This document shows, piece by piece, positions 4,507-30,400 of a stretch of 56,309 nucleotides of DNA. The first letter of the stretch is position 1, and the number at the start of each line of letters is the position of its first letter. This DNA is from Myxococcaceae bacterium (GTDB lineage: Bacteria > Myxococcota > Myxococcia > Myxococcales > Myxococcaceae), in NCBI GenBank assembly GCA_019694595.1, contig JAIBBQ010000020.1, forward strand, positions 1 through 56,309, written 5' to 3'. The position numbers were made by a program, and so were the translations under genes. The notes beneath the pieces were generated by a model, which worked only from the letters and a program-made list of their open reading frames with translations, had not been told where the DNA came from and made no database searches.

Positions 4507-4540
4507 GTCGATAGCTGCTGCGCGCGCGGGCCCGAGCGCT

Positions 4541-4546
4541 TTAAGT
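4541..4546 (+). promoter_or_regulatory. Candidate -10 box for addB
   Basis: TTAAGT lies 8 nt before the GTG at 4555, in the 48-bp gap after the lipoprotein gene. There is no Shine-Dalgarno sequence between it and the start, so the message may begin at or next to the start codon. Confidence 0.35.
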
Positions 4547-4554
4547 GCCGGGCC

Positions 4555-13135: not shown

Positions 13136-14356
13136 TCAGGCCGGAACGGTGCCCGCCCGTCCGCTCGGCGCCAGCTGGAGCGCGACCAGCGCCGCGGCCG
13201 CAGGCCACACCTGCATCAACAGCCGATTGAGCAGCGTGCCGTTCTCCGCGAACACCCTCACCCGCTCCGGCCCCACCAGCAACGCCGCGGCGATGAACCC
13301 CAGGTTGAGCACGATCGCGAGCCGCAGCGCCCGCGCCGATCGCTCCTGCGGCGCGCGCACCATCGCCGCCACCACCAGCGCCCAGAACACGCCCCACGAG
13401 AAGACATCGCTCGCGTGCAGCACCACGAGCTGCCCGAGCTGAGGCAGCCAGCCCCACGCCGGCGCCGTGAAGGCGTGGTCCGCGTTGGCCACTCCGTGCG
13501 CCGTGGCCAGCGAACGCCAGGTCCAGACCGCGCCGAGAGCGAGCAGCGCCGGGATCGACCGCCTCAGCCCGCGCTGCCCCACCATGAACGCCGCGGCGGA
13601 CACCGCGAGCACATGCGTGACCCCTTCATCCTTGAGCCCCGCCAGCACCAACGCGATCGCCAGCGCCTGCGGCCGCGGAGCCTCCGCGAGCAGGTGCCCC
13701 AGCAGCGCCAGCGCGAGCAGCCCGACGGGAAGGTCCACGTACACACTGCGCAGGTGGATCCACACCAGCGGAGTCATCAGCACCGCGCCCACGACGAGCA
13801 GCGCACGACGGCCATCGAAGTGGGGCGCCCACGCCTCGAGCGCCACGCCGAGCGCGAGCACCACCAGCAACGCCGCCGCGAAGGTGTGCGTCTCCAGCGC
13901 ATCGTGCCCGAGCGACACCCAGCCCACCGCCGCCGGCCACAGCGGGGGGTAGCCCACGGGAATGAGATGCTGCGCCGGATCGAGCGCCGCGCTCACCCCC
14001 GCGCCGAAGTGCAGCGACTCCAGGCGCGCCTTCGCCAGCCACACGAACTCGTCCCACTGGGTGGGAGTGAACGGCCGCAGCAGCGCCAAGGTCGTCAACA
14101 CCACGAGCAGCGCCCAGGGCAGCCGGGCCCGCTCCCCCGGCCGGGACAGCAGCGCGGCGAAGCCGAACCCCACGCCCAGCACGACGCCCGAACTCCCGAG
14201 CGACACACACCAGAGCACCGCCAGCCCGAGCCACACCGAGCTCGGAGAGACCAGCCCACCCTTCAGCTCCGCGAGGAGGCTCCGCGGATTCGTCACCGCA
14301 CGCACCAGCGCCCCCAGCAGGTGAATCAGCGCCAGGCCGGCGAGCGCGTGACTCAC
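13136..14356 (-). CDS. Polytopic membrane protein, GT39-like
   Basis: The open frame extends upstream, but the GTG at 14356 overlaps the upstream stop (GTGA), so a 406-aa product is preferred. It is almost entirely hydrophobic helices, about ten by eye. The first loop after TM2-3 has RPFTPTQWDEFVWLAKARLES, resembling the acidic DE/DD first periplasmic loop of PMT/ArnT-type GT-C glycosyltransferases; a second loop has IPVGYPPLWP. GT-C enzymes use polyprenyl-phosphate sugars on the periplasmic side. The acceptor cannot be inferred, and assignment to GT39 is by topology and loop residues only. Confidence 0.75.
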   Translation of the reverse strand: MSHALAGLALIHLLGALVRAVTNPRSLLAELKGGLVSPSSVWLGLAVLWCVSLGSSGVVLGVGFGFAALLSRPGERARLPWALLVVLTTLALLRPFTPTQWDEFVWLAKARLESLHFGAGVSAALDPAQHLIPVGYPPLWPAAVGWVSLGHDALETHTFAAALLVVLALGVALEAWAPHFDGRRALLVVGAVLMTPLVWIHLRSVYVDLPVGLLALALLGHLLAEAPRPQALAIALVLAGLKDEGVTHVLAVSAAAFMVGQRGLRRSIPALLALGAVWTWRSLATAHGVANADHAFTAPAWGWLPQLGQLVVLHASDVFSWGVFWALVVAAMVRAPQERSARALRLAIVLNLGFIAAALLVGPERVRVFAENGTLLNRLLMQVWPAAAALVALQLAPSGRAGTVPA

Positions 14357-14862
14357 GGCTTCGCTCCGCACACCACGTGGCCGCTCACCCCGTCGATGGC
14401 GCACCCCGCGCCCAGCGGGCCCGCGTACGCCTCCAGCTCCACCGCTGGTCCCTCGATGGGAGGCCGGGTGGGCACCGCGTACCGGACGAGCGGAAACAGC
14501 ACGTCGTCTTCCTCGTGCACCACGCGCACCGGCCCAGGCCACGGCGCCTTCGCCTGAAGGTCATCCAGGGTGACGTGGATCGCGCCCGCGAGCTCGGCCC
14601 TCCGCCCCGGAGCATCCGCCCGCGCCGAGAGCACCTGCACCAGCCCGGGAATCGCCGAGAGCGCGAGGAGCAGCGCGAGCGCCCGAGGCCGGCGCCGCAG
14701 GAAGAGCAGCCCCACCACCAGCGCCACCCCCGCGAGGCCCAGCGAGAGCTGCGCGCGCGGGAAGTGCGCCCGGGGGTCGGACATGACCGCGTTCGCGCCG
14801 TCGAGGACGATGGCCTCGGGCGTTCCCAGCACCAGCGCGTCGTGGCCCGTGGGCGCTTCCAT
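14353..14862 (-). CDS. Small membrane-anchored hypothetical protein, 169 aa
   Basis: Starts at ATG 14862 and is the first gene of a two-gene operon with the GT-C-like protein, which overlaps its end. Residues 1-35 are polar, 36-56 form a first hydrophobic helix, then Arg-Arg-Arg-Pro-Arg and a second helix (ALALLLALSAIPGLVQVL). The C-terminal half is soluble and ends in a Cys-x8-Cys pair (GCAIDGVSGHVVC). The topology suggests two TM segments with the C-terminal domain outside. No family recognised; coupling suggests it assists the glycosyltransferase-like partner. Confidence 0.7.
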   Translation of the reverse strand: MEAPTGHDALVLGTPEAIVLDGANAVMSDPRAHFPRAQLSLGLAGVALVVGLLFLRRRPRALALLLALSAIPGLVQVLSARADAPGRRAELAGAIHVTLDDLQAKAPWPGPVRVVHEEDDVLFPLVRYAVPTRPPIEGPAVELEAYAGPLGAGCAIDGVSGHVVCGAKP

Positions 14863-14870
14863 CGCCCGCG

Positions 14871-16121
14871 GTGCTTACGGGAAGGCGCGCGCCGTTGCGA
14901 GCGCTGGAAAGCCGTGCTTTCACCTCGCCGCTGTTGCGCCCGGTCCTCGCCCTCACCGCCCTCCTCGCCACCGCCGGCTGCTGGCGCAGCACCGGCGCGC
15001 GCTCCGACGGCCCGGTGGACCTCCTCGTCCTCGCCCCCCACCCCGACGACGAGGTGCTGATGGCGGCAGGCCTCCTCGGCCGCGCGGTGCGCGACGGCAA
15101 GAGCGTGGCCGTGGTGCTGATGACCAACGGGGACTACACCTGCGCGCGCGACGGCCTGCTGCGCCAGCAGGAGACCATCCAGGCGATGCGCTCGCTGGGC
15201 GTCACCGAGGCGCAGATCCACTTCCTCGGCTACCCCGACGGCTACCTCCCCAAGCTCGGAGAGAATCCGCTGCCCCCCATCGAGCGGCGCAACCCCGACG
15301 GCAGCTGCGGGCGCGCCAACACCACGCTCCCCGCGCGCGGCGCCGGCCACCCCGATGAGCACACCCGGCGCACCGGCGTCCCCGCACCACTCACCGCGAA
15401 GGCGCTCCTCGGCGACCTCACCGCGGTGCTCGAGCGACTCCAGCCCCGCGAGGTGGTGCTCCCCCACCCCATCGACGAACACCCCGACCACGCCGCGACC
15501 TACGCGTACTTCCGCCGCGCGCTCGAAGGCCTCAAGCGCGGGCCGGTGACGGTCCACCGCTCCGTTGTCCACCAGGGCAACTGCTGGCCGGGCGACTGCC
15601 AGGTCGAGCTGTCACCGGAGTCCAAGGTGCCCCTGCTCCCCGCGCCGCTCGAAGCGTACCTGCCGTCGGAGCGCTTCCCCGCCGACGGCCGCGCGAAGGA
15701 AGCCCTCATCGCCGACTACCACTCCCAGACCGGCCCCCAGCTCGAGCAGAGCTGGCTGGCGTCGTTCGCCAAGGCCGACGAGGTGTTCTTCCCGGAGACG
15801 CTCCAGCGCGACGATGCAGGCCACTGGTCCTCCGGCCCGGCGCAGACGCTCGACGGCGAAGGCACGCGCGCGCTGCAGTGGTGCATGGGCGAGGCCTGCC
15901 GCGGCTACCAGGTCGAACTCGACGGAACCCAGCTCACCCTGCGCGAAGCCGAAGGCCACGTGGTGCGCCGGTGGACCGCCGTCGATGCGACGAAGTGGAC
16001 GCTCGAGGTTCGCCCCGGCGCAGGCGACTTCTCGGAGTGGAGCCTGTCCACGCCGCAGGGGCTGGTCGGCGTCGCGGTGCTCCCCGGCGCGAAGGGCGCG
16101 CTGACCAGCGTGGAGCGGTAG
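14871..16121 (+). CDS. PIG-L (LmbE-like) deacetylase lipoprotein
   Basis: 416 aa from GTG 14871; TTG 14895 would shorten it by eight residues and leave more room for the divergent promoter. A signal peptide ends in the lipobox TAGC (Cys 37). The metal-binding motif APHPDDEVL at residues 56-64 and the second motif HPIDEHPDH (about residue 200) are the zinc site of N-acetylglucosamine deacetylases of the PIG-L/LmbE family. The last 130 residues form an extra beta-rich domain not usual in short LmbE proteins. As an exported lipoprotein it probably acts on sugars of cell-surface or external glycans rather than on mycothiol-type thiols. Substrate unknown. Confidence 0.9.
   Translation: MLTGRRAPLRALESRAFTSPLLRPVLALTALLATAGCWRSTGARSDGPVDLLVLAPHPDDEVLMAAGLLGRAVRDGKSVAVVLMTNGDYTCARDGLLRQQETIQAMRSLGVTEAQIHFLGYPDGYLPKLGENPLPPIERRNPDGSCGRANTTLPARGAGHPDEHTRRTGVPAPLTAKALLGDLTAVLERLQPREVVLPHPIDEHPDHAATYAYFRRALEGLKRGPVTVHRSVVHQGNCWPGDCQVELSPESKVPLLPAPLEAYLPSERFPADGRAKEALIADYHSQTGPQLEQSWLASFAKADEVFFPETLQRDDAGHWSSGPAQTLDGEGTRALQWCMGEACRGYQVELDGTQLTLREAEGHVVRRWTAVDATKWTLEVRPGAGDFSEWSLSTPQGLVGVAVLPGAKGALTSVER
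14872..14877 (-). promoter_or_regulatory. Candidate -10 box for the gene starting at 14862
   Basis: Minus-strand TAAGCA ends 9 nt before the ATG, the same spacing and near-identical sequence as the box before the gene at 2495. It overlaps the putative GTG start of the divergent PIG-L gene. Confidence 0.3.
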
Positions 16122-16126
16122 CGGCA

Positions 16127-18325
16127 CTACGGCGCCACGGGGCTGCACGCCTTCGGCTCGAGCATCGCGTCGCGCAGCGTGGCGGCGATGGGAATCAGCC
16201 GGGGCGTGACGCGGTAGCGGTCGGCGCGCGTCTTGAGGAACACCGAGTCCTCGTAGCCGCCCAGCCGGTTGCCTTCCTTGTCCATGGCGTAGAACTCGCT
16301 CACGCCGTTGATGCCGATGATCGCAGTCTCCGGCTCTCCGCCCGGGACGAACCAGGGGCTCGTCACCTGCCCCCCCATCGAGTGCCAGCGCGCCTCGGGC
16401 GGCAATTTCTGCAGCCCCGGGTGCGCCGACAGGAGCGCGAGCAAGAGCGTCGGCACGTCGTTCTGCGAGAGCACCGAGCCTTCGAGTTCCTGCTGCGCGC
16501 GCGCGAGCGCCGCCTCGAGCGCCGGGCGATCGACCGCCTTCTCCAGGAACGCCTTGGGGATCACGATGAGGAACGGGATCTGCGTCTTCGCCGCGTCGGT
16601 CTCCGGGTCGAACGGCCCCCAGACGTACCCCTCGCCCGTCGAGTGGTCCGCGCCCAGCACCACGATGGAGCGCTCGGCGAGCCCGCTCGTCTCCAGCTCC
16701 TGGAAGAAGTGCTCCAGCGCGTAGTCGGTGTACGAGTGGACGATGAGGCGGCGCTGGTCGTCGTCGTCGGCACGATTGGGCACCGTCTTGCGCGCGCGAA
16801 CCACCCGTTCCGTCACTTCCTTGGGGAGATCCTCCGGCGGGGTGAAGGGCGAGTGGTTGGACAGCGACATCACGAAGGCGAACTGCGGCCCCGTCTCCAC
16901 CGCCTTGGCCACCCGGCTCGCCGCCTCGTGGAAGATGGTGAGGTCGGTCAGCCCCGACCACACGCCCTTGGGCAGCTTCTCGGGCAGCTCGTCCTGGGAG
17001 ATGACCTCGTCGACGCCGTGCTCCATGAGGAACTTCTTCATCTCGTCGAAGGTGGGGTCCGACCCGTAGAGGAACCGGCCGTGGAAGCCGCCCTCGCGCA
17101 GCAGGTCCCCGGTGCAGCGCAGCGGGAAGGGCAAGAGGTCGCGGGTGATGGCCAGGTTGTACGGCAGCGTCCCCACGCCGCAGGTGAAGGCGCCCAGGCC
17201 CTGCGCGGTGCGCACCCCAGCCTGGAACATGCCGGTACTCCCGAGCACGCCCTCCGACCCTCCGCGGCCGGCCGACTCGTAGAGCCCGTTGGTGAAGGGA
17301 TCGAGCTCGCGCGCCGCGGCCGGGTTGAGCGCCTGGAGGTCGTCGGCGCGGTAGCTCTCGAGCGAGAGCTGGAACACCGCCACGTTGGGCTGCGCCGGCG
17401 AGAAGAGCGCCTTGGACACGTCCTGCAGCGCTTCGATCAGCTTCGCCCCCGGCGGCCGCTTCGACGTCCACTCGCGCTGAGGCTCCATCGGGCGCGCGTG
17501 CGGGTGCGGCCAGCAGGTGCCCTGCGCGTCCCGCTTGGGCGGCCACCCCATGCGGCCCGAGCCCACCGCCTCGTCGCTCGCCGGCAGCTCGACCTTCAAG
17601 ATGAGGTCCCTCGGCGTCGCCGCGTCGCGGTGCTGCAGCAGATCCACCGAGCTCTCGATGACGCCGGTGAGCGGGTCGCCCAGCGCTGCCGGGCTGAAGG
17701 CGTTGGCCGCCACGGCCTGGAGCCGCGCCGCGAGCTGCCCGGCGAAGACCCCCAGGGTGAGCGAGACGACGAGCCCCACGGCCCAGCCGCCCCAGGTCCG
17801 CGCCTCGAGGTCGCTGCGCGAGCGCCGCACCGCCGTCCACAGCGCGAGCCCCAGCAGCACCGCGCCCACCAGCAGCGACACCCAGATGCGCGCGTAGCGG
17901 ATGTACCCCAGCAGCCCTTCGAGGAAGGACGCGTTGCCGCCGCCTTCCGCGAGGTCGAACATGGTGGGGAAGGCGCCGCGCTCGAACTTCACCTCCTCGG
18001 CGATGATGGCGAAGACGCCGAGGGCGATGCCGACCGGGAGCGCCACCAGCAACGGCCCGATGCGCTGCCAGAAGATGCTCTTCTTCCCCCGGAAGGCGAG
18101 CGACAGCAGCAGCGACAAGAGCCCCACCGCGATGGCCAGCAGGTACCCGCTCGCCGAGAGGTCGAGCACCGCCCCGGCCAGCGTCCGCCCGGTCTTCTCG
18201 AGCAAGGTCCCCCGGCCGCGAATGGCCGTCTCCAGCCGCGACGGGAGACAGGCCAGGGCCAGGAGCATGGTCGCCCAGGCCCCGGCGCCGAGGCCACGCT
18301 TCAAGGAGGGGGGGAGCGGAAACAT
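16127..18325 (-). CDS. LtaS/MdoB-like sulfatase-fold membrane phosphotransferase
   Basis: 732 aa with about five N-terminal transmembrane helices (residues 12-210) followed by a soluble alkaline-phosphatase-superfamily domain. The domain shows the LtaS/OpgB order: FQLSLESYRADD (first metal ligand), VRTAQGLGAFTCG (Thr nucleophile region), MSLSNHSPF and VVLGADHSTGEGY. These enzymes transfer glycerol- or ethanolamine-phosphate from phospholipid to a surface glycan. In a Gram-negative host the likely substrates are periplasmic or outer-surface glycans; teichoic acid is not expected. It is divergent from the membrane ATPase/GT2 pair, 72 bp away, which suggests a joint surface-polymer role. The minus-strand leader has TAGGGGAGGGG before the ATG. 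Confidence 0.85.
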   Translation of the reverse strand: MFPLPPSLKRGLGAGAWATMLLALACLPSRLETAIRGRGTLLEKTGRTLAGAVLDLSASGYLLAIAVGLLSLLLSLAFRGKKSIFWQRIGPLLVALPVGIALGVFAIIAEEVKFERGAFPTMFDLAEGGGNASFLEGLLGYIRYARIWVSLLVGAVLLGLALWTAVRRSRSDLEARTWGGWAVGLVVSLTLGVFAGQLAARLQAVAANAFSPAALGDPLTGVIESSVDLLQHRDAATPRDLILKVELPASDEAVGSGRMGWPPKRDAQGTCWPHPHARPMEPQREWTSKRPPGAKLIEALQDVSKALFSPAQPNVAVFQLSLESYRADDLQALNPAAARELDPFTNGLYESAGRGGSEGVLGSTGMFQAGVRTAQGLGAFTCGVGTLPYNLAITRDLLPFPLRCTGDLLREGGFHGRFLYGSDPTFDEMKKFLMEHGVDEVISQDELPEKLPKGVWSGLTDLTIFHEAASRVAKAVETGPQFAFVMSLSNHSPFTPPEDLPKEVTERVVRARKTVPNRADDDDQRRLIVHSYTDYALEHFFQELETSGLAERSIVVLGADHSTGEGYVWGPFDPETDAAKTQIPFLIVIPKAFLEKAVDRPALEAALARAQQELEGSVLSQNDVPTLLLALLSAHPGLQKLPPEARWHSMGGQVTSPWFVPGGEPETAIIGINGVSEFYAMDKEGNRLGGYEDSVFLKTRADRYRVTPRLIPIAATLRDAMLEPKACSPVAP

Positions 18326-18397: not shown

Positions 18398-21300
18398 ATG
18401 CGGCAGGTCCTGTCGGTCCTCACCCTGTGGGTCAGCAGCGCGATGGCCGCGCCTGACGGCGGCGTGTTCTGTCAGGACCTCGAGGCCCGCCTCGCCGAGA
18501 CCCGCCACACCCTCACCGCCTGCACCGACACCTCGCGCACCCTGGCCACGGCCCGCGAACGCTGCGAGGCCGAGCTCCGCGACAGCCACGACAAGCAGCA
18601 GTCGAGCGCCTCCAGGCTCGACGCCTGCGTGGCCGCGAGCGACCAGCGCTGCCGCGAGGCCGCGGTGTTCGCCGCATCCCTGCTCCAGGGCACCGCCCGC
18701 CCCCTGGGCACCTGCGTGCCGCCCGACACCCAGCGCAAGCTGCAGGAGCTCGTCGACACCTGGAACGTGCTCAGCCGCGCGGTGGTGCAGCTCGACGAGT
18801 ACGCCACCGGCACCTCCGATGCGCTGCCGCGCGTGGGCGGGACCTCCGAGTCCGAGCGCCACCTCACCCGGCTCCTGGGCGCACGCACCGGCGCGCCCTT
18901 GTGGAACCGGCGGCTCCTCATCTCGGCCCTCAAGCTCACCGCGCCCACCACGTGGGCCAAGCTCAAGTCCCAGGGGCCGGTGGCGGTCGACGCCTTCTTC
19001 GCGTCCTCGGGGCCGCTGCCCGAGGCCTTCATCAGCGAGGCGCGGGCCGAGCACCCCGACCCGCCCGGGCCCGCGGGGCCGCCGCTCACCGCCGCGCTGC
19101 GCCTCACGCTCTCGTACCTCGAGCTGTCGAACTGCGACGAGCGCATCTCTCCGCCGGAATGCTCTCGCGCCCGCCAGCTGGTGGAGCTGCTCGACAACAC
19201 CGGGCCGCTCATCATCCGCCGCCGCGTGGAGGAGATGTGGGCCACGCCGTGCGCGGGCGTCAACGCCGACACCGTGCGCGCCTGGCTGCAGGACTTCCCG
19301 GTGAGCCACCGCGAGAACGCGCAAGGGCCGCTGGGGGAGCTGGCGTCGGCCGCGCGCAGCAAGCTGTTCCTCTGCTTCCTCGCCGACCTCGACGGCTCCG
19401 ACTCGTACCGCACCTGGGCCACCAAGCACCTGCCCGACGCCACCACCGTGCCGCCCCGCGCGGTGTCGCTGGTCGACCGCTTCGCCGGCTTCGTCCACGA
19501 CGGCGACCCGGTCGACCGCTGCGCGCGCGCGGTGCGGGCGCTCCAGCACCTGCAGGCCGACGGCTGCGGCCTCGAGCGGCCCGAGGCCATCAGCGTCATC
19601 TCCCGCTGGAGCCACCCCCAGCCGCCCGCCGACGCGCCCCCCGAGCTCGAGGCCTGCCAGCACGTCGCCTCCCTGCTGTGGAGCGGCGCCACCGTCACCA
19701 TCGCCGACGACTTCAGCCACCCGCCGTCGCCGCAGGAGATGGTGAAGGTCGACCGCAGCGACAGCCCCACCGAGCTCGCCAAGCTCCGCTCCGCCTGCGA
19801 CGAGCGCCATGGCACCGGCCAGTCGTTCGAGAAGTCGCTGGTGGCCCTGGCCTCGGTGGCCCGCGACCTCGGTGAGCCGGTGGGCTCCGGCATCTGGCGG
19901 CTCGACGCCACCGGCACGGTGCCCGCGGAGCAGGTGCGCTACCAGCAGGCGCGGCCGTACACCGCGTGGGTCTCCCGGCAGCTCAACCGCGAGTCGGCGT
20001 GCCAGGCGCTGGGTCTGCCGGGCGCGCGCTGCGAGGAGTGCCAGGAGCTCGGCCCCGGAAGCCGCTACGACTGCGACGCGCTCTTCGACCTCCAGCGCAG
20101 CTGGGCGAGCCACCGCCGCTACACCTGGCTCGGCGCCGGCGTGCTGGCAGCGCTGGTGTCGCTCGCGTCCTGGCTCGCCCGCATGCGATCCGCGCGGCTG
20201 CGCTTCGGCAAGGCGCGCCGCTCCGCCGGCGAGCAGCTCGAAGGCCTGGGGCTCGAGGTGGAGCCCGACCCGTGGCGCTTCGTGCTCCCGTCGCGGCACG
20301 ACCTGCTGCGGGTGGCGCTCCCCAAGACGCCCGCCTGGGAACGCTGGGGCCCGATGGCCTGCGCGGTCATCGCCCCCGACGCCGCGGTGGTGCGCGAGGC
20401 CGACGTGAATCACGCCGCCTCGGCCGCGCTGCGTGAGGACACCCGGGTGGTGTTCCTGCTCCACGACGACGACGCGCTGCCCGACCTGGGCGCGGTGCGC
20501 GGCACGCTCGACTGGGCGGCGCGCGGAGGCACCAAGGCGGTGCAGGTGCTGCTGGTGCCCATCTCGCGGCTCGCCTGGGCCACGCGCGACGAGGACCTGC
20601 TCGACCTGGTGGAGACCACCACCCTGCGCGGCAACCCCTTCGAGGTCCGCGGCCCGGTGCGCAGCTCGAGCCAGTTCTGGAACCGCGAGCGGCTGGTGGC
20701 GGGCCTGCTCACCGAGGCGCGCGCCGGCAACTGGGTGGTGGTGACCGGCCTGCGCCGCTTCGGCAAGTCGTCGCTCGCGCTGGAGGTCGCCCGCCGCACG
20801 CCCGGCCCCACCGCCTACGTGGACCTCGCCGGCTTCCACCACGAGATCACCTTCGGAGAGACGCCCGCGGTCGCGGTGGAGGCGATCCTCCGCACGCTGG
20901 TGATGCGCCTGGCCGACTCGGCCACCGCGCAGTTCCCCGCCGCCGCGGTGCCGCCGGTGCCCCAGGGCCAGCTCGACGCGCCCACCCTCGCGGCCTGGCT
21001 GCGCGAGCTCGCGGTCGCCTGCAGCACCTCGAGCGGCACCGCGCCGCCGCCCATGGTGCTGGTGCTCGACGAGGTGGAGCAGCTCCTGTCCGCGAACCCG
21101 GAGAAGCTGGGCCGCGCGCTCGACGTGCTCTCCACGCTGGCGGGGCGGCTGCGCAGCACCGCCTCGGAGCCGTCGTCGCCGCACACCGGGCACACGGTGG
21201 GCGTGATGCTCTGCGCCGCGCTCCACCCGCTCTTGTGGGCGCCGCTGGCGACGCTGGGCGGCCAGTCGCTCATGGGCGCCTTCCCGTCGATCTGCGTGCC

Positions 21301-21889
21301 CACGCTCGACGACGACGCGGCGCACGCGATGATGCGCGGCCTCGGCGCGCGCCAGGGCATCCGCTTCGAGGACGACGCGCTCGACATCCTGGTGAAGGCC
21401 TCGCACGGCGTGCCGCTCCTGCTGCGGCGGCTCGGCACCTCGGTGCTCGAGCTCTACGACTCCGACCGGGCGCGGCACGGCGCGCTGGGGGCGATGCGCA
21501 TCGGCGTGGAAGGCGCGCGCGAGGCGGTGCGGCGCGAGGAGCAGGAAGGCTCGCCGCTGCGCGTGTGGGTCGAGTCGGAGATCGCCCAGGCCGAGACCTC
21601 CGCCGGGGTGCTCCTGCGCGCGCTGGCCCAGGCGGACAAGGTGAGCACCACCCGGCTGCAGCAGCTGGTCGAAGCGCAGGTGCTGGAGCGCTTCGAGGTC
21701 TCCGGCCTCAAGGGCCACCTGCCGCCGGCGGAGCTCAAGCGCCGCGCGCAGGAAGCGGCCACGGTGACGGTGCGCATCCTGGCCACCACCAAGCTGCTCG
21801 AGGCGCACGGCGACCTCACCTCGCCGGAGGCCTTCACGTTGCCTGACGGCGTGCTCCGGCGCATTCTCAAGGCCGGACGAAGCCCGTGA
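18398..21889 (+). CDS. Transmembrane STAND/AAA-type ATPase with large extracytoplasmic domain
   Basis: 1163 aa from ATG 18398 (the frame stays open far upstream by composition only). A signal peptide ends at AMAAPDG. Residues 22-570 form a Cys-rich extracytoplasmic region with a helical, coiled-coil-like start. One transmembrane helix lies at about 577-595 (WLGAGVLAALVSLASWL), followed by Arg-rich positive-inside residues. The cytoplasmic part has a 150-residue alpha/beta region, then GNPFEVRGPV and Walker A TGLRRFGKSSL (about residue 783), Walker B MVLVLDEVEQLL, and a C-terminal winged-helix-like segment. The NPF...GPV lead-in and RRFGKSS are typical of STAND-like NTPases. The stop overlaps a GT2 gene. 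Role unknown; a receptor-type switch is inferred. Confidence 0.85.
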   Translation: MRQVLSVLTLWVSSAMAAPDGGVFCQDLEARLAETRHTLTACTDTSRTLATARERCEAELRDSHDKQQSSASRLDACVAASDQRCREAAVFAASLLQGTARPLGTCVPPDTQRKLQELVDTWNVLSRAVVQLDEYATGTSDALPRVGGTSESERHLTRLLGARTGAPLWNRRLLISALKLTAPTTWAKLKSQGPVAVDAFFASSGPLPEAFISEARAEHPDPPGPAGPPLTAALRLTLSYLELSNCDERISPPECSRARQLVELLDNTGPLIIRRRVEEMWATPCAGVNADTVRAWLQDFPVSHRENAQGPLGELASAARSKLFLCFLADLDGSDSYRTWATKHLPDATTVPPRAVSLVDRFAGFVHDGDPVDRCARAVRALQHLQADGCGLERPEAISVISRWSHPQPPADAPPELEACQHVASLLWSGATVTIADDFSHPPSPQEMVKVDRSDSPTELAKLRSACDERHGTGQSFEKSLVALASVARDLGEPVGSGIWRLDATGTVPAEQVRYQQARPYTAWVSRQLNRESACQALGLPGARCEECQELGPGSRYDCDALFDLQRSWASHRRYTWLGAGVLAALVSLASWLARMRSARLRFGKARRSAGEQLEGLGLEVEPDPWRFVLPSRHDLLRVALPKTPAWERWGPMACAVIAPDAAVVREADVNHAASAALREDTRVVFLLHDDDALPDLGAVRGTLDWAARGGTKAVQVLLVPISRLAWATRDEDLLDLVETTTLRGNPFEVRGPVRSSSQFWNRERLVAGLLTEARAGNWVVVTGLRRFGKSSLALEVARRTPGPTAYVDLAGFHHEITFGETPAVAVEAILRTLVMRLADSATAQFPAAAVPPVPQGQLDAPTLAAWLRELAVACSTSSGTAPPPMVLVLDEVEQLLSANPEKLGRALDVLSTLAGRLRSTASEPSSPHTGHTVGVMLCAALHPLLWAPLATLGGQSLMGAFPSICVPTLDDDAAHAMMRGLGARQGIRFEDDALDILVKASHGVPLLLRRLGTSVLELYDSDRARHGALGAMRIGVEGAREAVRREEQEGSPLRVWVESEIAQAETSAGVLLRALAQADKVSTTRLQQLVEAQVLERFEVSGLKGHLPPAELKRRAQEAATVTVRILATTKLLEAHGDLTSPEAFTLPDGVLRRILKAGRSP

Positions 21890-23190
21890 CCTCGCGCATC
21901 AAGCAGCTCCGCAGCCGGGTGGCCGGCGCCGCGCCGCTCTTCGGGGCGGTGGTGAGCCTGGTGTGGCTCGGCTGGAGCAACGAGTCGATGGAGAACGCCA
22001 CCTCGGTGGCGCTGGCGATGGCGTCCCATCCGTTCGGGGCGATCGCCATCATCCAGGCCATCTACACCGGGCTCCTGAGCATCCTGTGGATGCGCTACCG
22101 CCAGTTCGTGGCGCCGGAAGGCGTCGAGTGGCCGAAGGTGACGGTGGTGATTCCCGCCTTCAACGAAGGCGCGATGGTGGGCCGCAGCATCCGCTCGGTG
22201 GCGGCCTGCAACTACCCCAAGGACAAGCTCGAGGTGATCGTCGTCGACGACGGCTCGCGCGACGACACCTTCTTCCACATGCAGCACCTGCGCCGGGAGT
22301 TCCCCGACCTGGTGAAGCTGGTGCGCTTCGCGGGCAACCGCGGCAAGCGCTCGGCGCTGGTGGCGGGGTTCCGCGCGGCGACGGGCGACTTCATCATCAC
22401 CATCGACTCCGACAGCGAGATCGCCCCGCAGACGGTGCACGAGATGGTGGTGCCCTTCCTCGCCGACGCCAAGGTGGGCGCGGTGGCGGGCCGGGTGGCG
22501 GTGCTCAACCGCGACACCGCCATCAGCCGCATGCTCGACGTGCAGTTCGCGCTGGCCTTCGACTTCGGCCGCGCGGCGCAGTCGGTGTACCGCGCGGTGG
22601 CCTGCTGCCCGGGCGCGCTGTCGTCGTTCCGCAAGTCGGTGATCCTCCCGTACCTCGAGGAGTGGGAGAACCAGCGCTTCCTCGGCCGCCCGGTGAACCA
22701 CGGCGAGGACCAGGCGCTCACCAACATCGTGCTCCGCCAGGGGTACGACACCGTCTACCAGCGCACCGCCATCGTCCACACGCTGGTGCCCACCAACTAC
22801 TCGCAGCTCTCGCGCATGTTCCTGCGCTGGGACCGCAGCTACATCGTCGAAGGCTTCTCCTTCGCGCGCTTCATGTTCACCCGCTACCGGGAGAAGAACC
22901 GGGTGCTGCCGGTGGTGACCTTCTTCGTCGCCAACCTGCGCTTCGTGCTGGTCGCGGTGGCGCTGATGGAGCTGCCGCGGCTGTTCGACACGAGCCTCAC
23001 CACCGTGGGGCGGAGCCTGGTGGCGCTGGCGCTGGGCTCGGTCTTCACCGCCGCCTACTACCTGCACTTCGAGCGGAGCTTCCGCTGGCTCTACGGCGTG
23101 CTCTACGCCGCGTTCTCGCTGATCGCCCTGCAGTGGATCCTGCCGTGGGCGCTGGTCACCGTCAGGGACGAGCGCTGGGGGACGCGGTAG
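21886..23190 (+). CDS. Membrane GT2 glycosyltransferase (hyaluronan/chitin synthase-like)
   Basis: 434 aa starting at a GTG that overlaps the ATPase stop (GTGA). Two N-terminal hydrophobic helices, then a processive GT-A domain: VTVVIPAFNEG, IVVDDGSRDDT, TIDSDSE (DxD metal site), GEDQALTN (catalytic base region) and FLRWDRSY, equivalent to the QxxRW box though with Phe-Leu in place of Gln. At least three C-terminal TM helices follow. This arrangement is shared by NodC, HasA and related synthases that polymerise and export a beta-linked glycan. The overlap with the membrane ATPase suggests stoichiometric partners. The 3' end overlaps the convergent App1-like gene by 29 bp. Sugar specificity unknown. 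Confidence 0.92.
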   Translation: MTSRIKQLRSRVAGAAPLFGAVVSLVWLGWSNESMENATSVALAMASHPFGAIAIIQAIYTGLLSILWMRYRQFVAPEGVEWPKVTVVIPAFNEGAMVGRSIRSVAACNYPKDKLEVIVVDDGSRDDTFFHMQHLRREFPDLVKLVRFAGNRGKRSALVAGFRAATGDFIITIDSDSEIAPQTVHEMVVPFLADAKVGAVAGRVAVLNRDTAISRMLDVQFALAFDFGRAAQSVYRAVACCPGALSSFRKSVILPYLEEWENQRFLGRPVNHGEDQALTNIVLRQGYDTVYQRTAIVHTLVPTNYSQLSRMFLRWDRSYIVEGFSFARFMFTRYREKNRVLPVVTFFVANLRFVLVAVALMELPRLFDTSLTTVGRSLVALALGSVFTAAYYLHFERSFRWLYGVLYAAFSLIALQWILPWALVTVRDERWGTR

Positions 23191-24406
23191 CCGACAGCTG
23201 GGCGTCGAGCGCCTGCACGTCGGCCGCCACCTGCGCGCGGAAGCCGGCTTCCGCCTCCGGACTGCCGAAGGCGAGCGAGTCCAGCGAGCCCAGCACGTCC
23301 TGCGCCACGGTCGCCGCGCCCTGCGGCGAGATGAGTCCCTGCGCCAGGGCCGCGCGCGCCGCGCCGACGTAGGTCTGGAAGTAGGTGATGCCGTCGTCTT
23401 GCGCGTCGGTCCGCGGAGCGACCTGGTGAATGAAGACGCCCGCAATGCGGTCGGGCCGCGTCGCCGCCATGCCGCGCCCGGCGAGCACGTCGCCCTGCCC
23501 GTTGTCGCCCACGAAGGCGTAGCGGTACTCGGGGAAGAGCGCCTGGTGCCGCTCGAAGTTCTTCACCTTCTGCGCGCCCATGCCGCCGTACGCCCAGCGC
23601 TCGCGGTCGAAGGGGACCAGCATGCGGCGCAGGTAGGTGGCGAGCCCGCCGGTCATCACCGAGGAGCCCGCGAAGCCGAGCTTGGAGAGCTGCGCGAAGG
23701 TGGGGCTCGCCTCGCGCTCGGGCCGCGCGGTGAGGAAGACGAGGTCGCCTTCCGGAGCGCCCCTGGGCCCCTGGTCGAGCGCCCGGTAGAAGGCGCGCAC
23801 GCCCGGGTACTCGGTGCCCTTCCGGAAGCGAGGGTCGTTCACCGACGCGTAGATGGTGTCGTCGATGTCGCTGAGCAGCTTCACCTCGCCGGTGGGGACC
23901 GCTTCCCGGGCGAAGTGGGCGAGCACGCTCGAGCGCTGCTCGGGGGAGAGGACCTCGAAGACCAGCTTCTCCAGCGTCTGCAGATCCGCGCCGGCGTCGA
24001 CCTGGTTCTTGAGCGCGGTGAGGTCGCGGCCGTGGGTCGCCAGCAGCACCTGCTGCGCCGCGGCGGCGCCGGCCTTCCCCGCGTCGGCGGACTCCAGCGC
24101 GGTGAGGAGCTGCGCGCGCTGAGGCACCGTGAGGCTGTCCACCTGCTTCGCGAGGTGCACCAGCGCCTGCTCGCGCTCGCTGGGCGCCTCGAGGCGGTCC
24201 TTCACGCGGGAGAGCAGCTGGGGAACGCCGCTCGCCTGCCCCACCCGCGCGGCGACGTCGAGGACCGCGGCGCCCAGCGCGTGGCGCGCCACCGACCAGC
24301 CGGACTCGCTCTCCTTGGAGAGCCCGACCGGGCCCGCGGCCATGGCCTCGGCGGCCGGCGACGACGTCGCTGGCGGGGGTGGCGGTGGCGAGCCCTTGAT
24401 GCGCAT
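23162..24406 (-). CDS. App1-like phosphatidate phosphatase domain protein (DUF2183)
   Basis: 414 aa from ATG 24406. The N-terminal 170 residues are helical and low in complexity, starting with a Pro/Ala-rich segment. The core from about residue 180 has LLSDIDDTIYASVNDPR, the DxDxT of HAD phosphatases in the App1 form, followed by GTEYPGVRAFYRAL, LVFLTARPE and a later FVGDNGQGD that supplies the final acidic pair. Yeast App1 dephosphorylates phosphatidate; bacterial relatives are poorly studied. The 3' end overlaps the GT2 gene by 29 bp in convergent orientation. It lies 16 bp after the DUF1552 gene, so may share its transcript. Confidence 0.85.
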   Translation of the reverse strand: MRIKGSPPPPPPATSSPAAEAMAAGPVGLSKESESGWSVARHALGAAVLDVAARVGQASGVPQLLSRVKDRLEAPSEREQALVHLAKQVDSLTVPQRAQLLTALESADAGKAGAAAAQQVLLATHGRDLTALKNQVDAGADLQTLEKLVFEVLSPEQRSSVLAHFAREAVPTGEVKLLSDIDDTIYASVNDPRFRKGTEYPGVRAFYRALDQGPRGAPEGDLVFLTARPEREASPTFAQLSKLGFAGSSVMTGGLATYLRRMLVPFDRERWAYGGMGAQKVKNFERHQALFPEYRYAFVGDNGQGDVLAGRGMAATRPDRIAGVFIHQVAPRTDAQDDGITYFQTYVGAARAALAQGLISPQGAATVAQDVLGSLDSLAFGSPEAEAGFRAQVAADVQALDAQLSATASPSARP

Positions 24407-24422
24407 CGGCCCAAATACCCTA

Positions 24423-25853
24423 TCAGCTTCGGCGCTGGAGCTCCGGCAGCGGCCCCGCGAAGGACACCGAGGTGCCGTCGGCGGCGATGGCGCCCGGGAG
24501 CCCGAAGGTGCGGTCGCGGAAGCCCAGGGCCTGGAGCAGCGTCACCAGCAGGCGGTTGTGGGCCGGTCCCGTCAGGGGGAAGCCGGGCAGCGGGCTCGAG
24601 GCGGTGCGCGGGTAGCGCAGGTACTGGCCCGTCTGCAGCGTGCCGCCCAGGCTGCCGGCGACGAGCGCGAAGGCGTCGTGGTGCTCGTGGGTCGGCGTGC
24701 CGAGCTCGGTGAGCCACACCACCGCGGTGTGGTCGAGCACCGTGCCGTCGCCCTCGGGCACCGCGTCGAGCTCGCCGAGGAGCGTCGCGAGGTGGCGCGC
24801 GTACCAGGTGCCGAGGTCGATCATCGCCCGCTCGTTGAGCGGCGTGTAGAGCTGCCCGCAGGCGGTGGCCCCTTCGATGGAGCCGTGCGCGTACATGCCG
24901 TGCACGTTGGCGTCGGCGGGGTAGCCGAACTCGTCGCCCTGGGGGACCGGCGCCACGTAGGTCACCACCCGCGTGAGGTCGCACCGCAGCGCCAGGGCGA
25001 TGACGCGCATGAACTGGGTGACCCGGGTGCCCGACGCATCGAAGGCGGCCTCGCAGGCCGGCGCCACGCCCGAGGCCAGGCTGCGCTCGAGGTCGCGCAC
25101 CAGCGCGCGGTGGTGCTCGAGCTTGCGGCGGTCGTCGGCGCCGAGCCTGGGCGCCAGCGCCTCGAATTCCTGGCCCACGAGATCGAGCACCGACGCGCGC
25201 TCGCCGCGCAGGCGCTCGGCCCGGCTCGGCGTGCCCCCTGGCGCCTGGCTGGTGGCGCCGATGAGGTCGTCGAAGGCCACCTTGGGGTCGCCCACCACCG
25301 GGGTGGCCTGCGCTGGCCCGAGGAAGGAGAAGGGCGAGACGGTCTGGTTGGGCACGTAGCCCGCGCCGTAGACGCGCGAGCCGAAGCGGCCGGGAGCGGC
25401 CAGCCGCAGCGCGAGCTCCTGGTCGATGGAGCGGGCGCCGCCGGTGCAGCGCTGGCCGGGGTTCTGCGCCGCGCGGGCGCCGGTGAGCAGGCCGGCCACG
25501 GCGATCTGGTGGTTGTTGGCATCGCCGCCGGTGCGGTTCACCTGCGCGATGTCCGCCAGCACCGAAGCGTGGCTCAGCCCCTCGATGACCGAGAGCTTGG
25601 AGGCGAACGGCGTCAGCGGGCGCAGCACCTCGCTCCACCGCTCCGCGGGGAGGTCGGGCAGGCTCAGGCGCCCCACATCGTCGGTGGGGCCCGGCACCGG
25701 CATCGTCCACCCCTTGGGCACGTGGCCGTGGGGCTGCACGAAGAAGACCACGCGGCGCGGCGTGTCCTGCGGTGCGGCGAGCGCCCCGGCCCGTGGCCCG
25801 ACGAGCGCTCCGAGCCCCAGCGCCTTGAGGAGCTGCCGGCGGTCGAGCGTCAT
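24423..25853 (-). CDS. DUF1552 family exported protein
   Basis: 476 aa; the ATG at 25853 overlaps the upstream stop (ATGA). The N-terminus DRRQLLKALGLGALVGPRAGALA looks like a twin-arginine signal. The body shows DUF1552 features: FFVQPHGHVPKGW, VIEGL, a NNHQIAVAGLLTG segment, a paired Asp/Glu region, NVHGMYAHG and WLTELGTPTHEHHDAFALVAGSLGG, then LTGPAHNRLLVTLLQALG. DUF1552 proteins almost always pair with DUF1592-type proteins in planctomycetes and myxobacteria; their substrate is unknown. They resemble sulfatase-fold DUF1501 proteins in their His-rich segments. Confidence 0.9.
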   Translation of the reverse strand: MTLDRRQLLKALGLGALVGPRAGALAAPQDTPRRVVFFVQPHGHVPKGWTMPVPGPTDDVGRLSLPDLPAERWSEVLRPLTPFASKLSVIEGLSHASVLADIAQVNRTGGDANNHQIAVAGLLTGARAAQNPGQRCTGGARSIDQELALRLAAPGRFGSRVYGAGYVPNQTVSPFSFLGPAQATPVVGDPKVAFDDLIGATSQAPGGTPSRAERLRGERASVLDLVGQEFEALAPRLGADDRRKLEHHRALVRDLERSLASGVAPACEAAFDASGTRVTQFMRVIALALRCDLTRVVTYVAPVPQGDEFGYPADANVHGMYAHGSIEGATACGQLYTPLNERAMIDLGTWYARHLATLLGELDAVPEGDGTVLDHTAVVWLTELGTPTHEHHDAFALVAGSLGGTLQTGQYLRYPRTASSPLPGFPLTGPAHNRLLVTLLQALGFRDRTFGLPGAIAADGTSVSFAGPLPELQRRS

Positions 25854-27451
25854 GGCGTGGCCTCCGCGTGCCGCAGCCGGAAGGTGGGCGACAGCGCGAT
25901 GTCGGTGAGCAGCGCGCGCACGTCGCCGCCGCTGTCCAGGAAGCGCTGGGTGAGCAGCTCCACCTGCGGTCCTTCGACCGCCACCGGCGCGCGCCCGAGC
26001 GCGTAGCGCACCCACTGCTCGGCGGCGCAGCGCTGCACCACCGTGCTGCGGGCGAGGCGCTGCGAGAGCTCCAGCGCGCCGTCGAACGGACCGTCGACGT
26101 CGGTGCGCCGCAGCACCCCGCGGGCGTCGATGGGCAGGCCCCGCTCCTGGACCTGGTACGCGCCCGCCGCGCCGTAGTGCTCGAGCCCGAAGCCCAGGCC
26201 GTTGAGGCTCGCGTGGCACCCCTGACAGGTGGGCGGCGCGGTGCGCTCCTCGAACAGGGTGCGGTTGGTCTTGGGCCCGCCGCCGGGTTGCTCCTTGGGC
26301 GGCGAGAGGTCGACGCCGGGCGGCGGCGGGTTGGGCAGCTGGCAGAGCAGCCGCAGCGCGATGGCGTTGCCGCGGATCGGCGGGCTGGTGGCGCCCCGGT
26401 GCGAGGTGCCCGCGAGGAAGGCGACCCGCGTCAGCACTCCGGCGCGCTCGGTGGCCGGGAGCTCGACGGCCCCCGACACCGCGCTCAGGCCGTAGAGCCG
26501 GGCGGACTCGTCGTCGAGCCACGCGGAGCGGCTGAGGAGCAATGCGCTCAAGGTGCCGTCGAGGGCCATCGTCTCCTCGACGAAGCGCTGCGTCTCGCGG
26601 GCGGCGGCCTGCGCGCTCGCCGGAGTCCACCCCGGGTCGACCTCCGCAGTGCGCTGGGTGTGCTCGTCGTCGAGCACCCGCTCGAGACCGAGCCACTGGC
26701 GGTGGAAGCTCCACAGCGTCCGCCGGGCACGAGGGTCCGCGAGCAGCCGGGTCACCTGGGTTCGCAGCTGCTCCGGCGTTCGCAGGGCGTCGGCCTGCGC
26801 CGCGTCGAGCAGCGTCTGGTCGGGCGCCGACTCCCACAGCAGGTACGAGAGCCGGCTCGCCATGGCGTACGGCTCGACCGGAGTGGGCTCGCCGGGAGGG
26901 CCCGGGAGCTCGACGCGGTAGAGGAACTGGGGCGACTGCAGCATCGCGGTGAGGGTGAGCTGCACGGCGCCTTCGAAGTCGAGCGCCCCGAGCCAGCGCC
27001 CGAAGGCCGCGGACAATCGCGCGTGCTCCTCGGCGGTCACCGGGCGACGGAAGACGCGCATCCCCTCCCCGTCGATGAACCGCTCGCCGCAGGCGGTGGC
27101 GAGCGCGGGCGTGAACCAGTCCTCGCATCCGGTCAGCGTGCGCACCTGCGCAAGCGTGGCCACCGCGGCCTGCGCGTGGAGCGCGGCGATGGTCTCGAAG
27201 CGCGCGATGCGCACGTCGGACGGCTCCTGCGCCTGGGCCTCGTTGTCGAAGAAGCCCACGCCGAGGTCGGCGGGCAGCGGCGGCAGGGTGGCGGCGACGT
27301 CGGGGAAGAGGTCGCTCAGCGTGTGGAGGTACTCGCCGTTGCTCAGTCGCCGCAGCGGCGCCGGCCCCACTGCCTCGGGCACCGACGGCGCGGGTGCAGG
27401 CGGTTCGGTGCAGGAGAGCACCACACAGCAGGCGGCGGCGAGGCGGCGCAC
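25850..27451 (-). CDS. DUF1592/DUF1588/DUF1585 exported CxxCH lipoprotein
   Basis: 533 aa from GTG 27451. The N-terminus MRRLAAACCVVLSC gives a lipobox-like Cys. Then come RRLSNGEYLHTLSDLF (DUF1587-like), FRRPVTAEEHARL (DUF1595-like), LTAMLQSPQFLYRVE and ASRLSYLLWESAPD (DUF1592), RRGATSPPIRGN-like text with CQGCHASLNGLGFGLEHYG (DUF1588, with one haem-type CxxCH) and YALGRAP...DIALSPTFR (DUF1585). It lacks the large N-terminal cytochrome region of planctomycete relatives. It is translationally coupled to the DUF1552 gene. An outer-surface redox role is a family-level guess. Confidence 0.9.
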   Translation of the reverse strand: MRRLAAACCVVLSCTEPPAPAPSVPEAVGPAPLRRLSNGEYLHTLSDLFPDVAATLPPLPADLGVGFFDNEAQAQEPSDVRIARFETIAALHAQAAVATLAQVRTLTGCEDWFTPALATACGERFIDGEGMRVFRRPVTAEEHARLSAAFGRWLGALDFEGAVQLTLTAMLQSPQFLYRVELPGPPGEPTPVEPYAMASRLSYLLWESAPDQTLLDAAQADALRTPEQLRTQVTRLLADPRARRTLWSFHRQWLGLERVLDDEHTQRTAEVDPGWTPASAQAAARETQRFVEETMALDGTLSALLLSRSAWLDDESARLYGLSAVSGAVELPATERAGVLTRVAFLAGTSHRGATSPPIRGNAIALRLLCQLPNPPPPGVDLSPPKEQPGGGPKTNRTLFEERTAPPTCQGCHASLNGLGFGLEHYGAAGAYQVQERGLPIDARGVLRRTDVDGPFDGALELSQRLARSTVVQRCAAEQWVRYALGRAPVAVEGPQVELLTQRFLDSGGDVRALLTDIALSPTFRLRHAEATP

Positions 27452-27466: not shown

Positions 27467-30400
27467 TCAGCGGAAGTACGGCCGCTCGTCGGCGAAGAGC
27501 ATCGCCTTCACCATCGGCCGCCAGGCGGCCGGCGCCTTGTCGCCCCACACCACCAGCCCGGCGGCGAGGACCTGCCCCTGCTCCGCCAGCGAGCCATCGT
27601 GAGCGAAGGCCTCCAGCGCCTCGAAGGACGAGCCCGTCGCTGGCCGCCGCAGCACGGCCAGGAAGTCGTCCCGCTGGTTCTCGGCCACCGGGCTCTCGGC
27701 GAGGAAGGCCTTCGCCACGCTGGCCCCGGCCCCGCTGCGGACCGCCAGCGCAGCGAGGAAGACGGCCGACTGGCCCGACACGTCGGAGGGGGCGATCGCG
27801 AGCCCCCGCTGCACGTCGCCCGGCGTGGCGGTGTCGGATGCCGCCACCAGCGCAGCCACCGCATCGACGGACCGACCGGACGCGCCGAACTTCAGCGCCT
27901 GGTCCAGGTTCCCGGCGTTGAGCGCCCGGTACGCCTTGACGTCCGACGTGTCCTCGGCGGAGCTGGGCCGCTCCGGGGCGAGCAGCGCGGAGAGCTCCGC
28001 GGACTCCTTCTCTTCCCCCGCGTTCGGCGACTGCTTGTGGCCTTGCACCGCCGCCAGCCGGCGCAGCCGGGTGAGCTCGACGACGTAGCTTTCGACGAAC
28101 GGCGCCAGGTCCTTCGCCGAGAGCGCGACGTCGTAGAGCGCCAGCGCCTCGACCGAGCGACGCTCGCCGGCGAGCGTCATGCCGCGGGCGAACGCCAGCC
28201 AGGGGTTCTTCGGGTGCCGGGTCTGCGCCTGAGCGAAGGCGGCGTCTCGCTCGGCGCTCGGGGGCTGGCAGCGGATGGAGAAGTACTCGGCGTCGCCGTC
28301 CGCGGGGTCGGCCTTCGCGCGCGCGGCGGCGTCGGCGCACACCGCTTCCCGCTGCGCCGCCGTGCCGAGGTCCGCCACGGCACGCGCCAGGAAGACCGAG
28401 CGCGGCTCGCGCTTCGCCCGCTCGACCAGCGCATCGACGGCGCCCGGCACCGTCCGGGCGAGCGTCACCCACCTGCCGAGCTGCCGGTCGTCGAGGGGGT
28501 CGAACCGCAGGTGCGCCGAGATCATCGCCGCCTGCTCCTGCGGGTCGGACACCATGCCCACCCAGGCCTGCGGTGGCAGGGTGAAGGGCGCCTCCAGCAC
28601 GCTGCGCGTCTCGCTCGAGCCGGCGCTGGTGCTGATGCTCTTGGGAGGCTCCGCGAAGAAGTAGTCGTCGGAGGTGGAGAGGACCGAAGGCGCGCCGCGG
28701 AGCTGGTCCGGCGGGGGCTGGCCGTCGCCGTATACCACGCTCCAGGACACCAGCGGCACCGCGTGCGCCACGTCGTAGACGGTGTGGCCCAGTGCTCCCG
28801 GGTCGAGGTGGAGCCGCTCCACTTCCCTGCCGTCGGTGGTCCGGGTCACCACCTCGAGGTCCTCTTCCTTCACCTCGACCCAGCGCGCCGAGTGCGGCGG
28901 CACGTTGAGCCGGTACTGCGCCACCTGCACCACCACCGCGGTGGCGAGGCCGTTCACCACGTGGAGCGTGGCGCGGGCGACCTGGCCGCCGACGAAGAAC
29001 ATCGGCACCAGCACCGCGATGGCCACCAGCGCGCGCAGCGTTCCAGGCACCACCCCGTCGGCAGTCTGGAAGCGGTCCCACCAGCCGAGCCGCTTCTGCC
29101 GCTCGCGCTCCGCGCCCACCAGGCAGGTCGAGTAGCGCGCGGGGAAGCTCGCCGGCGTCGGCGCGGGCGGCACCGGCTCGTCCTTCTCCACCGCGGCGCG
29201 CAGCTGCGCCTCGCACTCCAGGAGCACGTCGAGCGTGGCGTCGACCAGCGACCAGAGGTCGGACGCCGCCGAGCCCGCCCAGCTGTCCACCGCGTTGAGC
29301 CAGGGCCCCAGGTTGGCCTCGGTGGGTACGTTGAGGCCCAGCTTCTCGTCGAGCGCCCCCCAGCCCCCGGTCTTCTCGAAGGCCGCCGACACGTCGGCCG
29401 GAAGCACTACCTGGGCCTTGCCCTTCCACGTCTCCACCAGCACGCCGTGGAGCGCCACCGCGGTGGTGAGCACCCGCTTGCGCTCCGCGTTCGACACGCT
29501 GCCGTCGGCGAAGACGATGCCCAGCACGTGGTGCAGGTGGTCGTGCGCGTCGGACAGGTTGCGCGCGGCGTGGGTCGCGTAGTGCAGGAGCTTCACCAGC
29601 GCGTCGTGGTGCTCCGCCCAGCCCTGCCCCAGCAGCCGCGCCGCGTCGCGGTGCACCGCGCGGCACTCGCGGTCGTGGTCGAGGATGCGCTGCTCGACGT
29701 CGCGGCGCTCTCCGCGGACGGTGGCGATGACGTTGGGCAGCTCGCGCTTGCGCAGCTGCCGGCCCCGGAAGCGGATGATGCCGCCCGGCGCCGAGAGCAG
29801 CCCGTCGGCGAGCCCTTCGAGGAGCGCTTGCTCTTCCTGCCGCGCGCGGTGGTTCTGGTGCCAGTCGCTCAAGGGCGCCGGGTAGAGCCGCTCGAAGCGG
29901 CGCTTGAGCCCCTCGCGGTCGGTCGCCCCGGTGGTGCCCACCATCGTCGCGGGCGCCGCGTCGTAGCCGGCGACCGAGCGGCGCAGGTAGGTGCCGCGGT
30001 AGCGCGGGTCGAGCGCCGGCCGGGTGAAGCGCTTCTCGAAGCGCTCCATCGCGCTCTCGGGCGGCGGCTTCGCATCCGGGCCCGCCTTGGACTTCACCTC
30101 GGCGAGGAGCTGCGCGGTGCTCGCCTTGCGCAGGGCGGCGGGGTCGCGGAAGAGCGTCCACGCGGGGCGGGGGTCGAGCGCAGAGGCGAGGTAGACGGCC
30201 TTGGCGCTCTCTTCCCGCTCGCTGCTCGGCGGGTGCGTCTGCCACATGCGCGGAGGCTGGGCGAGCTTGGCATCGAAGACGCGGTGGCTCGCGCCTGCGC
30301 CATCGGGCCGCGCAGGAGTCGCTCCGAGCCCCGGCTCGTCGAGCACCCGGCGCAGGTGCCGCAGCGCCACGTCCTGGTACTCGAAGAGGTCCGGGACCTT

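Follow-up and report, generated by a model that had tools for sequence, protein, structure and literature searches.

What is an ATPase with a large extracytoplasmic part doing beside the gene for a sugar-polymer synthase? The question is raised by a stretch of 56,309 nucleotides from a Myxococcaceae bacterium (contig JAIBBQ010000020.1; hereafter the window), in which a gene for a transmembrane ATPase of the STAND type (signal transduction ATPases with numerous domains) is followed by one for a membrane-bound family 2 glycosyltransferase (GT2). Processive GT2 synthases are controlled mainly via cyclic di-GMP (c-di-GMP) or through small partner subunits; STAND ATPases are known for the most part as cytoplasmic receptors with roles in immunity, cell death and gene regulation. 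Homologues were sought in 145 genomes of the window's order and in 183 genomes of a second order, taken around the genome that holds locus L062 (a Polyangiaceae metagenome-assembled genome, MAG). Strict co-occurrence, linkage and a single GT2 clade point to the ATPase and the GT2 being a dedicated pair.

Within the window's order, the ATPase was found in 18 of the 145 genomes, and a GT2 of at least 60% identity was present in exactly those 18; the best GT2 in the remaining genomes reached no more than 48% identity. The second order held the ATPase in 10 of its 183 genomes, which were exactly the 10 with a GT2 at least 67% identical to the query, and 16 further genomes contained only relatives of 39–48% identity. 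These ATPase homologues include 22 named loci, and the ATPase gene of the window is present in a single copy in its genome. A 29th genome (G200), outside the counts of both orders, also carries both genes. The GT2 was present somewhere in all 29 genomes and neighboured the ATPase gene in 25, lying downstream on the same strand in 12, convergently within ∼2.3 kb in another 12, and divergently in one (L059), where a GT-C-like gene stands between the two. In the other four (G025, G141, G143 and G048) it lies away from the ATPase gene. Since the two genes are found as neighbours in three orientations, or unlinked, and are always co-present, the pairing survives rearrangement. An earlier note on this DNA had allowed that ATPase homologues might mostly lack a GT2 neighbour; the counts run the other way.

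All 29 ATPase-linked GT2s fell into one clade (support 100/99 in a tree of 42 sequences), and pairwise distances in the ATPase and GT2 gene trees were correlated (r 0.91). The distribution of the pair is patchy: in genus g41, both genes are present in G074 and absent from G054; of the genera of family f1, four have both and most have neither. Forcing the sequences of the window's order into a single clade was rejected by the ATPase tree (approximately unbiased test, P = 0.001) and not by the GT2 tree (P = 0.27); the pattern is only suggestive of a joint horizontal transfer of the pair, with the two gene trees disagreeing in these tests. Twelve GT2 positions were fixed, or nearly so, in all 29 ATPase-linked sequences, with residues that never occurred in 13 ATPase-less relatives. 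Among them are Q276, where the ATPase-less sequences have R or H; H272; V321, which is R in every ATPase-less sequence; and E429 and G432 (L or M outside the clade). These residues adjoin the GED(Q) and (M)xxRW motifs and the gating loop, which by homology correspond to the acceptor site, the helix following RW and the gating loop itself. They would fit either a partner acting on the gate or a different product.

The ATPase gene is a single open frame encoding 1163 residues, with the N-terminus MRQVLSVLTLWVSSAMAAPDGG (coordinates are given in Table 1). Its full-length homologues (42–66% identity) align cleanly and have a similar M-K/R-hydrophobic-AxA start, so the signal peptide is conserved. 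Some 555 extracytoplasmic residues precede the transmembrane (TM) helix and ∼570 residues follow it. The outer region opens with a coiled coil (residues 25–96) and continues as an all-helical domain; across residues 25–559, 16 alignment columns were Cys in at least 80% of 21 homologues, and 10 were invariant, whereas on the cytoplasmic side only three Cys columns reached 80% and none was invariant. Conservation of Cys on one side only is the pattern expected from an oxidising periplasm, and backs the topology independently of hydropathy. A second hydropathy peak (residues 933–951) corresponds to a strand within the ATPase domain, leaving one TM segment. The homologue N-termini, the hydropathy profile and the Cys columns therefore bear out the signal peptide, the ∼550 Cys-rich extracytoplasmic residues and the single TM helix claimed in the earlier note, and the outcome that would have refuted it, a failed TM prediction and a wholly cytoplasmic protein, was not found. 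The NPF...GPV and Walker A (GLRRFGKSS) motifs that it had picked out are both present and, like Walker B, are invariant or nearly so across the homologue alignment. HGVPLLL (residues ∼1003–1009), also conserved, is the GxP motif of the STAND class. In the distant ATPase of L010, a stretch with a similar-looking order of segments could be recognised by eye ahead of its own GPV motif.

An AlphaFold2 (AF2) model of the ATPase built from 21 sequences had a mean predicted local distance difference test score (pLDDT) of 78 and a predicted template modelling score of 0.42, with which the placement of the domains is uncertain. In its layout, the coiled coil is followed by a helical outer domain up to residue ∼556, a long membrane-crossing helix (557–616), an alpha/beta domain (617–740), a low-confidence linker carrying the NPF–GPV motif, and finally the ATPase and winged-helix region. 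VIA-align matched residues 750–1163 to PABY2304 of P. abyssi (Z 17.7; 306 residues, 4.2 Å), to ORC2 of A. pernix (Z 16.4) and to the plant nucleotide-binding leucine-rich repeat (NLR) receptor RPP1 (Z 15.8). The alignments to STAND/ORC chains extended to residues 1158–1163, spanning the winged-helix region, and Foldseek matches also included MalT and CED-4. Whole-model matches outside the ATPase region were uninformative, and the other parts were barely tested by VIA-align. Pfam reported AAA_16 above its cut-off and nSTAND1 below it; the ATPase combines an AAA+/Orc-like P-loop domain bearing Walker A and B with a winged-helix region bearing GxP. The fold comparison thus supports the STAND assignment made earlier: residues 750–1163 are predicted to fold like STAND/Orc ATPases, for which switching and oligomerisation would be putative properties here. 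Neither single-sequence nor profile searches returned a solved relative of the ATPase. The outer domain, modelled alone, reached a pLDDT of 84, and gave no convincing match among PDB folds (best E 0.19), a missing match being no proof of a new fold. The ATPase was also tried as a candidate anti-phage defence protein, and had no PADLOC match at E 0.01.

One homologue lacks the ATPase domain. In locus L094 (genome G332, contig C1022, open reading frame 3100–5523, minus strand), the equivalents of residues ∼600–1034, comprising the alpha/beta and ATPase domains, are missing in frame, and the outer domain runs through the TM helix into the C-terminal domain; a GT-C-like neighbour and an intact GT2 are present. 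Unless it is an assembly error, this variant suggests that the outer and C-terminal domains are the working link to the GT2 and the ATPase a removable switch. The deletion fits a modular design of sensor, switch and output.

The GT2 was grouped by Pfam, NCBIfam and PDB searches with NodC, hyaluronan synthases (HAS) and chitin synthases (E 1e-57 against the NodC model; E 6.5e-30 against HAS1). Its score of 195.9 bits against the NodC equivalog TIGR04242 is below the curated cut-off of 550; the description of it as hyaluronan-synthase-like holds in the sense of a NodC/HAS-type enzyme. VDDGS, DSDS and GED were invariant in 19 GT2 sequences, and alignment to HAS identified among them the metal-binding DxD and the catalytic acid–base. 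The QxxRW motif is replaced by MxxRW in every member looked at, with R and W kept; because the Met is constant with or without the ATPase, it is a trait of the wider subfamily. In HAS the sites to which GEDQ, MFLRW and RWGTR of the GT2 align (GDDR, QxxRW and the WGT motif) contact the acceptor sugar and uridine diphosphate, with the gating loop reaching into the active site (PMC11750622). NodC requires its QxxRW motif (PMC4132801), so that polymerising activity of an MxxRW enzyme is not to be assumed. From the kinship with NodC, HAS and chitin synthases, we infer that the product may be an N-acetylglucosamine (GlcNAc)-type glycan chain made at the inner membrane. Pfam reported no PilZ domain on the GT2. 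The translational coupling previously proposed for the two genes stands in part: the GTGA overlap occurs in the window's genome and a few close relatives, and is not general to the system, a four-base overlap being present in only some Myxococcaceae and the genes elsewhere lying 8–683 bp apart, convergent or unlinked. On the opposite strand, the 3′ end of a gene for a protein with an APP1-type phosphatidate phosphatase domain (window 23162–24406, minus strand) overlaps the GT2 gene.

The order of genes in the window is GT-C-like, small membrane protein, PIG-L, LtaS-like, ATPase and GT2. In the window's order, the LtaS-like gene was present in exactly the 15 f1 genomes carrying the ATPase, which supports its suspected link to the pair; in the second order, it also adjoins the GT2 at locus L093 of G320. 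Its product scored 30.7 bits against the LtaS model (curated cut-off 970), and only its sulfatase domain is clear. The PIG-L gene was found in 14 of those 15 genomes, being absent only from one that is 79% complete. As these 15 genomes are close kin, both profiles are weaker evidence than the co-occurrence of ATPase and GT2. Most PIG-L relatives have lipoprotein-type signals and two have a TM anchor; the deacetylases of the locus are therefore probably exported, and deacetylation would take place outside the cytoplasm. The GT-C-like protein had no Pfam match, and its class was assigned by eye from topology and sequence pattern. In two g5 genomes (L046, L048) the ATPase–GT2 pair has the GT-C/PIG-L/LtaS group on its opposite flank, and G025 carries the set in two parts, ATPase with PIG-L and GT-C (L044) and LtaS with GT2 (L074). 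Several loci of the second order have a different GT-C-like protein just upstream of the ATPase, and PIG-L is close by in L056 and L062. Three ATPase-less loci (L095, L096 and L097) contain a GT2 relative (40–44% identity), PIG-L and two GT-C-like genes, and are probably the ancestral form of the locus. Since GT2, PIG-L and GT-C genes persist in genomes lacking the ATPase, the latter looks like an added control module, and on the simplest reading the glycan cluster is old and gained the ATPase in a single GT2 lineage. Separately, a lipoprotein-like open reading frame lies between the ATPase and GT2 genes in L056 (14570–15592, minus strand), with a domain of fibro-slime/PA14 type by eye, and a GT20 (trehalose-phosphate-synthase family) protein is encoded near the ATPase in two distant MAGs (L064, 9594–12056, where the Pfam match is established; L060, 287–2710, minus strand).

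The account we prefer is that a membrane-spanning STAND switch gates the GT2 synthase, a proposal to which we give about an even chance. It starts from the domain plan, the predicted ATPase fold, the co-occurrence, the linkage and the single GT2 clade, and adds to them a ligand, a direction of signalling, a change of ATP state, a contact between the C-terminal domain and the GT2, and a product chemistry. The GT2 would build a GlcNAc-type chain at the inner membrane. The helical, disulfide-braced outer part of the ATPase would sense or bind an envelope cue; candidates are the glycan as it emerges, the same glycan once deacetylated, and a partner in the envelope. The signal would pass through the single TM helix and alter the ATP/ADP state of the STAND domain, upon which the C-terminal domain would act on the synthase, whose gating loop is a possible target, so that synthesis is permitted or stopped. 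Outside, the exported PIG-L, the GT-C membrane proteins and, in some lineages, the LtaS-like phosphotransferase may decorate the product. A cluster of GT2, PIG-L and GT-C lacking the ATPase is what would be expected if the latter were an added regulator. Several points weigh against this account. The predicted outer domain lacks a recognisable sensor fold (best PDB E 0.19); the pair of G332 persists without the ATPase domain, which, if the contig is right, shows that ATP switching can be dispensed with; within a family, genomes share descent, so that the 28 co-occurrences represent far fewer independent events; and the clade-specific GT2 residues could be due to another substrate instead of a partner.

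The best surviving alternative, which we hold to be somewhat unlikely, is that the ATPase resembles a polysaccharide co-polymerase of the Wzc type (by analogy, not kinship), the outer part holding or guiding the chain and ATP turnover setting chain length or coupling to export. Wzc-type proteins likewise place a helical periplasmic part, a TM segment and a cytoplasmic P-loop domain beside a glycan synthesis system; the strict pairing with a GT2 also speaks for this reading, and none of the recurrent neighbours was identified as an obvious outer-membrane export gene. They differ in fold, topology and type of synthase: the protein described here has one TM helix after a signal peptide and an AAA+/STAND fold, not that of bacterial tyrosine kinases. 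Moreover, STAND ATPases are generally regarded as switches and not as cyclic machines, and in G332 it is the ATPase part that is gone while the remainder is retained. The data do not separate gating from a role in export or chain length. We judge it unlikely that the GT2 makes a short or lipid-linked glycan, the ATPase controlling a glycolipid pathway that resembles glycosylphosphatidylinositol (GPI) anchor assembly in its types of step, an idea compatible with gating. Every member inspected has Met where the processive QxxRW motif has Gln, which would agree with it, as would the recurrence of PIG-L, GT-C and a sulfatase-fold phosphotransferase; however, PIG-L here, in contrast to the GPI enzyme, looks exported, no GT4 resembling PIG-A was seen, and every other hallmark of processive GT2s is present together with the kinship to HAS and NodC. 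That the ATPase is an anti-phage or conflict-type receptor incidentally travelling with a glycan locus is extremely improbable, for although the STAND class is rich in defence proteins, the ATPase is linked to one GT2 clade in every genome, has glycan genes and not defence genes as neighbours, and shows tree distances that track those of the GT2.

Returning to the gated synthase, each of its parts comes from a known superfamily. The GT2 shares with class I hyaluronan synthases (CvHAS, XlHAS1) and NodC the GT2 domain, DSDS, GED, the RW of QxxRW and the C-terminal WGT gating-loop motif; it differs in having Met for the Gln of QxxRW and Q for the R of GDDR, in ending at the gating-loop motif, in scoring under the NodC equivalog cut-off and in its strict STAND ATPase partner. 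The ATPase shares with the STAND group (PABY2304/Sso1545, Orc/Cdc6, NLR, MalT) the fold of residues 750–1163, the Walker motifs and the winged-helix region, and is set apart by its signal peptide, large Cys-rich periplasmic part, TM helix and fixed pairing with a glycosyltransferase. The cellulose synthase BcsA is controlled by c-di-GMP via its gating loop; the idea of a regulated processive GT2 is common to both, whereas here the regulator would be a separate envelope-spanning ATPase. In searches of the open literature we found no description of the ATPase–GT2 pair, nor any of myxobacterial glycan loci with an exported PIG-L (subscription papers were mostly outside the search); as far as it shows, the joined architecture and strict pairing are undescribed. 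They could represent a new class, in which an envelope-spanning STAND receptor directly switches a processive polysaccharide synthase on a periplasmic cue, a form of NLR-like control, although we put this at somewhat less than an even chance. The pairing suggests an unstudied control of surface sugar polymer synthesis. If the account is right, a STAND ATPase facing the periplasm and strictly paired with one synthase would link two fields, and would give bacteria that form multicellular structures a sensor for the making of surface glycans. Three carriers of the second order (G341–G343) have single-contig genomes of 12–14 Mb and may be cultured strains, which may make a test practical.

Table 1. 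Positions of the ATPase, the GT2, their motifs and the adjoining genes in the window
Feature	Position	Strand	Basis and remarks
GT-C-like polytopic membrane protein	13136..14356	-	start inferred (open reading frame list: 14542); 8 hydropathy peaks; neighbours
Small membrane protein overlapping GT-C start	14353..14862	-	open reading frame; no significant Pfam match; set membership unassigned
PIG-L family deacetylase, lipoprotein-like signal	14871..16121	+	Pfam PF02585; lipobox-like N-termini; profile
LtaS-like membrane phosphotransferase, sulfatase/alkaline-phosphatase superfamily	16127..18325	-	Pfam PF00884; phylogenetic profile
Transmembrane STAND-type ATPase, whole gene	18398..21889	+	1163 aa; translation, homologue searches
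Signal peptide, residues 1-18	18398..18451	+	sequence; kept in homologues
Extracytoplasmic region, residues 19-574	18452..20119	+	AF2 models, Cys columns
TM helix, residues 576-594	20123..20179	+	hydropathy; continuous helix 557-616 in model
Cytoplasmic alpha/beta domain ahead of ATPase domain, residues 617-740	20246..20617	+	AF2 secondary structure
NPFEVRGPV motif, residues 746-754	20633..20659	+	sequence, alignment
Walker A GLRRFGKSS, residues 784-792	20747..20773	+	sequence, alignment
Walker B LVLDE, residues 888-892	21059..21073	+	sequence, alignment
C-terminal winged-helix-like domain, residues 1035-1163 (GSPLRVWVESEI...)	21500..21886	+	retained in ATPase-less G332 variant; proposed output domain
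GTGA overlap, ATPase stop / GT2 GTG start	21886..21889	+	sequence
NodC/hyaluronan-synthase-like membrane GT2	21886..23190	+	434 aa; Pfam, NCBIfam, PDB searches
GEDQ, counterpart of HAS GDDR	22702..22713	+	alignment; Q only in ATPase-linked GT2s
MFLRW at the QxxRW site, Met replacing Gln	22816..22830	+	alignment
WGTR at extreme C-terminus (last residues RWGTR), on HAS gating-loop WGT motif	23176..23187	+	alignment

Further along the window, the minus strand encodes a DUF1592/1588/1585/1587/1595 (PSD/PSCyt) protein of a kind common in planctomycetes (25850–27451) and a 1286-residue protein that combines an M48 peptidase domain with a long extension (27467–31327).

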